From a bacterium (GTDB lineage: Bacteria; Patescibacteriota; Gracilibacteria; JAHISY01), in assembly GCA_021779375.1 (NCBI GenBank), contig JAJYAT010000001.1, positions 104,724 to 168,723 on the forward strand: 64,000 bases of DNA. The letters are read 5' to 3'. Positions within the stretch are counted from its first letter, which is position 1, and each line of letters opens with the position of its first letter. Made by a program: the position numbers and the translations under genes. The notes below the pieces were generated by a model. It was not told the DNA's origin, searched no databases, and saw nothing but the letters and a program-made list of their open reading frames with translations. Shown here piece by piece: positions 60,844 through 64,000 of this stretch.

Positions 60844-61092
60844 ATGCTGAAACCCATCCCTCTCGGCTTGGCGTTCGGGATTTTGTGGGGCGCTGCTTTG
60901 GCGTTCTGCATTATCCTCACCAAATTCACCGGCTATCCCGAACTCGCTTTTTACGCTCCACTCCAGGCCATCTATTTTGGAATCGAAATTTCCTGGTCTG
61001 GCGCATTCTTCGGTGGGCTTTGCGGATTTTTCGATGGCTTTTTCGGTGGATTAATTTTCGCCTGGCTTTACAATCTACTCGCGCGCAAATAA
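60844..61092 (+). CDS. Small bacteriophage-holin-like membrane protein
   Basis: An 82-residue protein with two or three hydrophobic segments. LGLAFGILWGAALAFCII and the C-terminal GGLCGFFDGFFGGLIFAWLYN match a small family annotated as putative holin in archaea and Patescibacteria. There is no lysis gene nearby, so the holin name is only a family label. Its stop codon directly abuts that of the convergent gene at 61093. Confidence 0.65.
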   Translation: MLKPIPLGLAFGILWGAALAFCIILTKFTGYPELAFYAPLQAIYFGIEISWSGAFFGGLCGFFDGFFGGLIFAWLYNLLARK

Positions 61093-61389
61093 TTACTTGC
61101 GCGAAAAAATCCACGGCGGTAGGAGCAGTGCGAGCAGAAACAACCAGCCGTTGTGAAAATTGATCGCGAGAATCGTGAGCGCAAAAAACGCAATCGACGC
61201 AAAGAGACAGTTGCGTTTTAGTTTTTCAAAAGCCAGCGTGAAAACTTTGAACTCCGGCGGCAGCGAGCCTTTGGGCGGCGTATGTTTTTCGGGCGCCTTG
61301 CCCACGATTTCACCTTCGAGAATGCGAGATTCTTCGGAATCGAAGTCCGCCGAAGCATTTTGCGAAGGCGGATCGTTTTTGTGGTTCAT
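61093..61389 (-). CDS. Small membrane protein, hypothetical
   Basis: A 98-residue protein. The first 55 residues are polar and Pro/Glu/Lys-rich, then two hydrophobic segments (CLFASIAFFALTILAI and WLFLLALLLPPWIF). No family is recognised. It overlaps the methyltransferase gene stop by 4 bp (ATGA), so it is probably the second gene of that transcript. Confidence 0.6.
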   Translation of the reverse strand: MNHKNDPPSQNASADFDSEESRILEGEIVGKAPEKHTPPKGSLPPEFKVFTLAFEKLKRNCLFASIAFFALTILAINFHNGWLFLLALLLPPWIFSRK

Positions 61390-62042
61390 TTTTCAGCCAG
61401 AATGATTAGGTTGCGGCCGCGGAAAAAATTGGATTTCTCAGCGTGGCGTGCGTAAAAAATTTTAATGTTTTTGAATCCCGTTGTCGCGAACAGTTTTTTG
61501 AGCTCACTTTTGCGAAATGCGAAAACTTCCCGCACGCCTTCGCCCGCGAAAGGAACTTGGAGTGTGCGAGCGAATTTTTGCGCCAAACGAAACTTCCAAA
61601 AACGGGGCTGCCACAAATTCCAGACTGTGAGAAAAATCCGTCCATCCGGCTGCAAGCTCGCGTAAAGGTTTTCCAGTGCTTTTCTTTGCTCAGCGGAATT
61701 TGTGAGATGGTGCAGTACTGCAACGCAGAAAACCGCGTCGGGTTTTCCATCCGTTAACCCCCGAGATATCTCGGGGGTTAACTCGCGCAGGTCGGCAACT
61801 GCGAACTCTCGAGCAGGAAAATTTTTTTGCGCCAAGGCGATCAAATTCTTGGAAGCGTCGAAGCCGAAATACTCGCCGTGAAAATTGTTGCCCGCAAGCC
61901 AAAAATTGAGACGACCATTGCCACAGCCCGCATCGAGAATTTTTTGAGCGGACAAAAGTTCGCGCGCAAACTCGAATTCGCCCCAGGCGCTGCGCCGTGT
62001 CGCATCCCACTTTTTCGAGATAGAATCGTAAAAATTTTGCAT
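61386..62042 (-). CDS. Trm9-like SAM methyltransferase (probable tRNA cm5U34 methyltransferase)
   Basis: A 218-residue Rossmann methyltransferase. FYDSISKKWDATRRSAWGEF followed by ILDAGCGNGRL, GFDASKNLIALAQ, AVADLRELT and VAVLHHLTNSAEQRKALENL closely follows the Trm9/ABH8 methyltransferase pattern, including the TR-W motif and the VLHH loop. Trm9 methylates cm5U34 of tRNA to mcm5U. The divergent neighbour is elp3, whose product makes cm5U, so the pair is very suggestive. Residues 87-97 (LTPEISRGLT) come from the same in-frame 30-bp palindrome as in carB. The start at 62042 shares the bases CATG with the elp3 start. Confidence 0.75.
   Translation of the reverse strand: MQNFYDSISKKWDATRRSAWGEFEFARELLSAQKILDAGCGNGRLNFWLAGNNFHGEYFGFDASKNLIALAQKNFPAREFAVADLRELTPEISRGLTDGKPDAVFCVAVLHHLTNSAEQRKALENLYASLQPDGRIFLTVWNLWQPRFWKFRLAQKFARTLQVPFAGEGVREVFAFRKSELKKLFATTGFKNIKIFYARHAEKSNFFRGRNLIILAEK
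61753..61782. repeat. 30-bp perfect palindrome inserted in the Trm9-like gene
   Basis: Same arms and core as 37879-37908. It stays in frame, encoding LTPEISRGLT. Confidence 0.95.
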
Positions 62043-62064
62043 GAATTTCGACGAAATCATTCTA
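62021..62064. promoter_or_regulatory. Overlapping divergent promoters of trm9-like and elp3
   Basis: TAGAAT at 62021-62026 (plus strand) ends 14 nt before the elp3 ATG. Its mirror, TAGAAT at 62064-62059 (minus strand), ends 16 nt before the Trm9-like ATG. Each -10 lies inside the other gene, so the two transcripts overlap antisense for about 20 nt. Confidence 0.5.
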
Positions 62065-63552
62065 CGAGCGATTGACGAAAAATGCGCGACTGAAAAGGAT
62101 CTGCGCGAATTGAAAGTTCGCGCGTCCGGACGGACGGGCAGCCTCGCGAAAAATTCCGAACTGGTCGAAGCTTATTTACGACTTTTGAAGGCGAAGAAAA
62201 TTAAGGTAAATCCTGCGCTGGAAAAAATTTTGAAAAAGTCGCGCATCCGGACCTTATCGGGCGTCGCCCCGATTGCCGTCCTGACAAAGCCGATGGGCTG
62301 CCCCGGCAAATGCATTTTTTGTCCGACAGAGGCGCGCATGCCCAAAAGTTATTTGTCGAATGAGCCCGCCGTGATGCGCGCAGTCCGCGCAGAGTTCGAT
62401 CCGTTTCGCCAAGTCAAAGACCGAATCAAAGCCCTGGAAAGCTGCGGCCACTCAACGGAAAAAATTGAGCTGATTGTGATGGGCGGAACTTTTTCAGCGC
62501 ACCCGCGCAATTATCAAACTTGGTTTGTGAGGCGTTGTTTCGCAGCGCTGAACTCGCGGAAGGCGAAATCAAACTCGCTTGAGGATTTGAAAACCGCGAA
62601 TGAAAAATCCAAGCACCGCGTCGTCGGACTCACACTCGAGACACGTCCGGATTTTTTGGACGCAAAGGAAGTGCAAAGATTTTTGAAGCTCGGAGCGACG
62701 CGCGTCGAAATCGGCGTACAAAACTTGGACGACAAAATTTTGGCAATTTCCAAGCGCGGTCACGATGCCGCCGACTCCGCCCGCGCCATCGCGCTTTTGA
62801 AAAAAAACGGACTGAAAGTCGGAATTCACCTAATGCCGAATCTGCCGGGTGCGACACCCAGGTCGGACTTGAAAATGTTCGAGGAGGTTTTTGGCAATGA
62901 AAAATGGCGACCCGATCAAATCAAAATTTACCCGACGGTCTTAATCAAAAACACCGAGCTCGAAAAACTGTGGCGCGCGAAAAAATGGCAGCCCTATTCC
63001 GACAAAGTTTTGACTGCGCTGCTCGCGAAAATGAAAAGCATCGTCCCGCCCTGGGTGCGACTGACACGCGTGATCCGCGACATTCCGGCGGAGTCGATTT
63101 TGGCAGGAAGCAAATTAACAAACCTGCGGCAAATTTTGCAGCAACAAAAAGTCGTGTGCCGCTGCATCCGCTGTCGTGAAATTCGTGGGGACAATTTCGA
63201 TGCAACGCAGGCGGAATTAATCCGCCGCGAATATCGGGCGAGCGCCGGACTGGAAATTTTATTGAGTTTTGAAATTGGTGAGAAGCTGATTTCGCTCCTG
63301 CGCCTGCGCCTCGATGAAAATGCGACCATCCGCGAACTGCACACCTTTGGCGAAGAAATCGGACTTTCCAAGTCGGGCAACTCGCAACACCGTGGCTTCG
63401 GAAAAAAATTAATTTCCGAAGCAGAAAAAATTGCGCGCAAGGCTGGCTTCGCGAAATTAAGAATTATTTCGGGCGTCGGCGTGCGAGAATATTATCGGAA
63501 GCTTGGCTACCGACTCGATCGTGAGAAAATTTTTGTTGAGAAAACCTTATGA
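62041..63552 (+). CDS. elp3: tRNA uridine 34 5-carboxymethyl synthase Elp3 (radical SAM plus GNAT)
   Basis: A 503-residue enzyme with a radical-SAM cluster motif CPGKCIFCP (Cys87, 91 and 94), the Elp3 stretch SYLSNEPAVMRAVRAEFDPF, TLETRPDF and ATRVEIGVQNLDDKIL, and a C-terminal GNAT domain ending in RGFGKKLI then GVGVREYYRKLGY. Elp3 builds 5-carboxymethyluridine at tRNA wobble position 34 from acetyl-CoA and SAM. The first 80 residues are helical, as in other Elp3. The product ends with a TGA that overlaps the nadC ATG (ATGA). The bacterial form works without the other Elongator subunits. Confidence 0.94.
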   Translation: MNFDEIILRAIDEKCATEKDLRELKVRASGRTGSLAKNSELVEAYLRLLKAKKIKVNPALEKILKKSRIRTLSGVAPIAVLTKPMGCPGKCIFCPTEARMPKSYLSNEPAVMRAVRAEFDPFRQVKDRIKALESCGHSTEKIELIVMGGTFSAHPRNYQTWFVRRCFAALNSRKAKSNSLEDLKTANEKSKHRVVGLTLETRPDFLDAKEVQRFLKLGATRVEIGVQNLDDKILAISKRGHDAADSARAIALLKKNGLKVGIHLMPNLPGATPRSDLKMFEEVFGNEKWRPDQIKIYPTVLIKNTELEKLWRAKKWQPYSDKVLTALLAKMKSIVPPWVRLTRVIRDIPAESILAGSKLTNLRQILQQQKVVCRCIRCREIRGDNFDATQAELIRREYRASAGLEILLSFEIGEKLISLLRLRLDENATIRELHTFGEEIGLSKSGNSQHRGFGKKLISEAEKIARKAGFAKLRIISGVGVREYYRKLGYRLDREKIFVEKTL

Positions 63553-64000
63553 AGCTTTTTTCGAAGCAAATCGCGCAACTTAATTTACACAATCGAGCGT
63601 ATCGCAATTTTGTTGAGCAACTGCTTGAGTTTTTGCTGCAAGCCGATTTAGGCAGCGGCGATTTGACGACGCAGTTATTGCAAAATCCGCAGCGCAAAAT
63701 CGAGGCGAAAGTAATCGCAAAATCAGCCGGCATTTTGGCTGGCGCAGAAGAAGTCGCGTTTTTCTGGCGCAAACATGGAGTGAAAATTTTGGCAGCGAAA
63801 AAAGACGGCGCGAAAATCAAAGTCGGTGAGACGGTTTTCGCGCTCAGCGGTCCGGCGGCGAAAATTCTCACGACGGAACGCGTCGGGCTGAACTTACTTT
63901 CACGAATGTCGGGCATCGCGACGGCGGCGGAGAAATTGGCGCACAAAATTGGTAGGCGTAAATTCGCCGCGACCCGCAAAACGCCGCTCGGACTTCTAGA
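63549..64000 (+). CDS. nadC: Nicotinate-nucleotide pyrophosphorylase (QPRTase), partial
   Basis: The first 150 residues are present; the window ends in the gene. LQADLGSGDLTTQLL, KSAGILAGAEEV, GLNLLSRMSGIAT and AATRKTPLGLL are the quinolinate phosphoribosyltransferase signature (NadC; ModD is a related alternative). It makes nicotinate mononucleotide from quinolinate and PRPP for NAD synthesis. Coupled to elp3 by a 4-bp overlap. Confidence 0.92.
   Translation, partial: MKLFSKQIAQLNLHNRAYRNFVEQLLEFLLQADLGSGDLTTQLLQNPQRKIEAKVIAKSAGILAGAEEVAFFWRKHGVKILAAKKDGAKIKVGETVFALSGPAAKILTTERVGLNLLSRMSGIATAAEKLAHKIGRRKFAATRKTPLGLL

Follow-up and report, generated by a model that had tools for sequence, protein, structure and literature searches.

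A divergent elp3 and Trm9-like methyltransferase gene pair in Gracilibacteria as a candidate route to mcm5U34 in tRNA

MnmE-MnmG is the usual bacterial route of modification at the wobble uridine (U34) of tRNA, and in eukaryotes the methyltransferase Trm9 requires the partner protein Trm112. Elp3 proteins of bacteria, archaea and eukaryotes act on tRNA, and residues K150, K266 and Y517 of MinElp3 are required for acetyl-CoA hydrolysis (PMC6367351). The elp3 and trm9 genes are also clustered in Sulfolobus solfataricus (PMC2584109), and some archaeal putative Trm9 orthologs are fusions with Trm112 (PMC5372719). In yeast, the tRNAs Lys-UUU, Glu-UUC, Gln-UUG, Arg-UCU and Gly-UCC bear mcm5U or mcm5s2U, and mutation of Trm9 residues R29, H115, R241, Y243 and N271 impairs both tRNA binding and activity (PMC5372719).

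The window (the whole stretch of 64,000 nucleotides that was analysed) carries an elp3 gene head to head with a gene for a class I SAM methyltransferase (MTase; Table 1). This arrangement resembles the archaeal Elp3 and Trm9-like systems of Sulfolobus and Haloferax in that a stand-alone Elp3, without other Elongator subunits, has a Trm9-like partner; it differs from them in being bacterial, in having MnmA as the likely thiolase and in the absence of Trm112. DmcElp3 of Dehalococcoides mccartyi is a bacterial stand-alone Elp3 with the same domains and motifs, but the literature surveyed mentions no Trm9-type enzyme working with it. The E. coli MnmE-MnmG-MnmC and CmoM enzymes also act on U34, and CmoM likewise esterifies a carboxylate on the U34 side chain; however, the chemistry is otherwise different, the enzymes are unrelated or distant, and MnmG is absent from the class to which the window belongs. 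It is likely that the pair forms a two-step wobble-uridine pathway, of a kind already described in yeast and humans, in which Elp3 would produce cm5U34 and a Trm9-like, Trm112-independent MTase would convert it to mcm5U34.

Table 1. Features of the elp3-MTase locus (window coordinates)
Feature	Position	Strand	Remarks
elp3	62041..63552	+	503 aa; ATG = 62041-62043, stop ends at 63552
Trm9-like class I SAM methyltransferase (MTase)	61386..62042	-	218 aa; predicted tRNA cm5U34 carboxyl O-methyltransferase; ATG = complement of 62042-62040, stop TGA at 61388-61386 (sequence)
CATG carrying the start codons of elp3 and MTase	62040..62043	both strands	read from sequence
Candidate -10 hexamer TAGAAT for elp3	62021..62026	+	within the MTase gene; position occupied by TAAAAT in L006 and L009
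Candidate -10 hexamer TAGAAT for MTase	62059..62064	-	within elp3; position occupied by TAAAAT in L006, L008 and L009

The elp3 product scores 524.7 bits against TIGR01211 (cut-off: 350) over residues 8-494, spanning the radical SAM and GNAT domains, and on this match it is a true, full member of that Elp3 family. It aligns with PDB structures of Elp3 from archaea, bacteria and eukaryotes (E-value: 1e-123). The radical SAM cysteines lie in GCPGKCIFC (motif from residue 86), with CRCIRC also present, and the lysine motifs EKIELIVMGG and GLKVGIHLMP are kept. At the GNAT end, the protein contains the acetyl-CoA motif QHRGFG and the tyrosine motif REYYRKLGY. When we mapped MinElp3 residue numbers onto the window protein from the PDB alignment, the lysines and the tyrosine of these motifs matched K150, K266 and Y517, and Q461 was found to pair with the Glu of RELHTFG.

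For the MTase, a single-sequence search of the PDB gave Yarrowia lipolytica Trm9 (5cm2) as the best match (E-value: 3e-11; next match: 3e-6), and a search with a profile built from 32 members again placed 5cm2 first (E-value: 1e-27; next match: 4e-20). This same profile scored Trm9 at 99 bits, Tam at 43, UbiE at 38, UbiG at 34, BioC at 33 and CmoM at 25, with the full E. coli panel (Tam, UbiE, UbiG, BioC, CmoM, CmoA and CmoB) spanning 43 to 15 bits. In the reverse direction, yeast Trm9 used as a query found the MTase as its sole match in the window genome (E-value: 4e-12) and recovered the elp3-linked gene in most genomes of the class (E-values down to 5e-20), while its matches in genomes without Elp3 were weak. 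By these searches, the MTase is Trm9-like, as the earlier note had proposed, and Trm9 is its closest relative among characterised methyltransferases. In a tree that included the E. coli panel, yeast Trm9 fell inside an unresolved cluster of MTase sequences with the E. coli enzymes outside it; the branches are very long and we regard this placement as weak evidence only.

The MTase satisfies the SAM motif DxGCGNG (DAGCGNGR, residues 37-44), matches Pfam methyltransferase domains and has a confidently predicted structure with a class I fold (pLDDT 80.7, pTM 0.82). Four of the yeast residues listed above (R29, H115, R241 and N271) align with MTase R16, H111/H112, R171 and N211, which are invariant in 32 of 32 relatives; yeast residue numbers were carried over to the Yarrowia chain, as we infer it, through the motifs TR, HH, RYY and DNWW. 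The position of Y243 is occupied by V173 in the window MTase, by V or I in its family and by Y in 24 of the 32 relatives. In the structural comparison that the earlier note had called for, identity is highest (28%) and rmsd lowest (2.3 A) for 5cm2 among the matches listed, but the Z ranking is not specific to Trm9, as 5cm2 reaches a VIA Z of 18.4 and the top match one of 20.6. More than 1000 chains match a class I fold and many Z values are tied, so the fold comparison was not relied upon. Overall, the MTase is like yeast Trm9 and the human ALKBH8 MTase domain in its structural identity to 5cm2, its N-terminal TRxxxW, HH pair and terminal Asn, the RYYH-type motif of most of its relatives and its link to Elp3. 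It is unlike them in being bacterial, in lying head to head with elp3, in having Val at the Y243 position in a genome without Trm112, and in that the fusion partner of some of its relatives is WecG and not an AlkB domain. It probably works like a Trm9, but it was not filed as an orthodox Trm9 since Trm112 is missing and Y243 is replaced.

The earlier note had suggested a survey of other Patescibacteria for the pair, and the genes were found to co-occur and to stay together across the phylum. Raw tallies among 242 genomes of the class gave Elp3 in 195 and the MTase in 193; with thresholds applied, 178 genomes have both, 11 have Elp3 only, six have the MTase only (several of these being incomplete) and 47 have neither (Fisher 1e-32). 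Across 183 genomes of the phylum, the corresponding counts are 47, 20, 0 and 116 (Fisher 5e-28). The phylum-level MTase call extends to an E-value of 2.6e-28, a threshold chosen after viewing the hit list at the point where full-length matches yield to partial matches of generic methyltransferases. As the Fisher values treat related genomes as independent, the spread of the pair over 13 families of the class and 20 beyond it is a better guide. The one-way dependence in the phylum set, in which the MTase occurs only with Elp3, is what is predicted for a second step acting on the product of Elp3. Twenty of the phylum genomes (for example in families f40 and f45) carry Elp3 without a recognisable Trm9-like partner.

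Divergent neighbours were found in 51 genomes of the class (13 families) and in 33 of the 38 MTase-bearing genomes outside it (20 families), and no co-directional elp3-MTase neighbours were seen among the adjacent pairs. In two f24 genomes the genes face each other at a distance of approximately 3-4 kb (convergent), and in the large families f7, f9, f10, f14 and f22 both genes are present and unlinked. Family f5 is largely without both genes: strong MTase matches occur only in its Elp3-bearing members G080 (E-value: 8e-50) and G179 (E-value: 1e-49), where elp3 and the MTase gene are divergent neighbours, while other f5 members reach at best approximately 1e-17. In-frame TGA codons are numerous in the Elp3 and MTase genes of f10, f14 and f22, which fits lineages that have recoded TGA; TGA is a stop codon in the window itself. 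On the two points that the earlier note had named as decisive against its reading, the MTase scores with Trm9 and not with UbiE/COQ5, and related genomes do keep the pair together.

The remaining U34 machinery of these genomes was also surveyed. No MnmG above the cut-off was found in any of the 242 class genomes; among the 183 phylum genomes it is present in four, none of which has Elp3. MnmA occurs in 105 of 107 genomes, including that of the window. Trm112 (PF03966) was not found in the window genome and is present in five of the 242 class genomes, so that it is missing from 237. A scan of stretches of the window genome showed that it encodes the same five tRNAs (Lys-UUU, Glu-UUC, Gln-UUG, Arg-UCU and Gly-UCC) that are modified in yeast. 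The chemistry, substrate and step order of the pathway, as we infer them, would be as follows. Elp3 would use SAM-derived radical chemistry and acetyl-CoA to carboxymethylate U34 at C5 (cm5U34). The MTase, acting without Trm112, would then use SAM to turn the cm5U34 carboxylate into its methyl ester, mcm5U34. MnmA would probably thiolate the Lys, Glu and Gln tRNAs, giving mcm5s2U34, and the Elp3-MTase route would replace the MnmE-MnmG route in these bacteria.

A different role for the MTase is suggested by the glycosyltransferase gene that often accompanies it. Many families of the class have the gene order elp3, MTase, wecG. A single polypeptide unites the MTase and a WecG/TagA/CpsF (GT26) domain in f2, f15 and f27 (L072:1483-2937, L073:2992-4485 and L075:1242-2822). 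Both arrangements would fit an MTase that serves, together with WecG/TagA/CpsF, a pathway of the cell envelope or of glycans and is only incidentally adjacent to elp3. We consider this unlikely. WecG is present in 231 of the 242 class genomes, including f5 genomes with neither Elp3 nor the MTase, and the class genomes with Elp3 and without WecG mostly retain the MTase. In the family of the window, wecG is located elsewhere (C14) and not at the elp3-MTase locus, and a sample of six loci from outside the class showed that the Pfam-named gene near the MTase encodes another type of protein. The retention of the tRNA-binding residues of Trm9, and the lack, among the 183 phylum genomes, of any with the MTase and without Elp3, also argue against an envelope role. 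WecG is found both in genomes with the MTase and in genomes lacking it, and for this reason it was ranked below Elp3 as the true partner; the MTase-WecG association is treated as a puzzling feature at the level of the class.

Two further readings concern the reaction itself. The MTase might act on U34 after Elp3 and yield something other than the methyl ester, with another side-chain derivative formed or another atom methylated; the missing Trm112, the loss of Y243 in the window family and the description of archaeal U34 derivatives as similar, not identical, to mcm5s2U (PMC2584109) are all in keeping with such a product. However, there is no variation at the equivalents of R29, H115, R241 and N271, residues that the yeast work connects with the orientation of cm5U34 for methyl transfer, and we think a different product improbable. 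That the MTase is an ordinary UbiE/COQ5-, UbiG- or CmoM-type enzyme, placed beside elp3 by chance, is very improbable: it has the common class I fold and a PF01209 score of 21.5 bits, barely above a broad cut-off of 20.1, but the specific NCBIfam models score far below their cut-offs. UbiE/COQ5 was rejected at 30.8 against 158 bits (TIGR01934) and 28 against 216 bits (NF001244), and CmoM and CmoB at 19.7 against 366 and 22.8 against 209 bits, respectively. Furthermore, the 32-member profile prefers Trm9 by more than 55 bits and the neighbourhood with elp3 is conserved phylum-wide.

Formation of mcm5U34 by Elp3 and a Trm9-like MTase remains the preferred reading. We think it reasonably probable that it extends across the Patescibacteria, with Elp3 and a Trm112-independent Trm9-type enzyme making mcm5U34, a wobble base of the eukaryotic and archaeal type, MnmA contributing to mcm5s2U34, and the whole replacing MnmE-MnmG. 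This phylum, mostly uncultured, appears to be largely without MnmG, and its Elp3 carriers usually have a Trm9-like partner, mostly in an adjoining position. If the reading is correct, mcm5U would not be confined to eukaryotes (and perhaps archaea), and a Trm9-like methyltransferase could function without Trm112. Small stand-alone enzymes would then also offer a way to test how the Elongator pathway arose in evolution.

Direct reading of the sequence bears out the observation of the earlier note that both genes start in a single CATG. An alternative in-frame ATG for the MTase at 62060 would give a protein of 224 aa and a 20-base overlap with elp3; an equivalent second ATG is found in the relative L009 and not in L006 or L008. 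The divergent pair is present in six of six genomes of the order, so its presence there is more than chance, and the exact CATG is kept in four of the six (the window, L006, L008 and L009). In L005, a 7-base gap separates the two starts. In L004, a member of the genus, a toxin-antitoxin pair that is RelE-like by eye (L004:959-1477) is inserted between intact elp3 and MTase genes. Shared CATG starts were seen in nine of approximately 58 distinct genomes inspected, from five families (f1, f60, f72, f97 and f102); in the other pairs the starts are usually 0 to approximately 120 bases apart, with a few families at approximately 1.1 kb or more. The balancing role that the earlier note proposed for the antisense 5' overlap is not supported because the shared CATG is not general, and such a role is speculation. 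As a regulatory device the overlap was rejected as a general feature, most pairs being gapped and many families unlinked. Its appearance in several separate families is consistent with genome compaction.

It had also been claimed that the -10 box of each gene lies inside the other. TAGAAT hexamers do occur at these places (Table 1), and since the starts overlap, any -10 box must fall within the other gene. Their identity as promoters is unproven, however, because a consensus scan for sigma-70-type promoters found none at the hexamers and the region showed no excess over shuffles.

At their far ends, elp3 and the MTase gene both run into tightly packed genes, as indicated by overlaps of stop and start codons. 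The ATG of a 98-aa ORF (61389-61093, minus strand; no Pfam or NCBIfam match) overlaps the MTase stop (ATGA), and beyond it, at 60844-61092 on the plus strand, an 82-aa protein scores 67.5 bits against NCBIfam NF037947 (holin_4), just below the cut-off of 70. On the other side, the ATG of a gene at 63549-64000 (plus strand) overlaps the elp3 stop (ATGA); by eye, from its translation alone, the product resembles a NadC-like nicotinate-nucleotide pyrophosphorylase.
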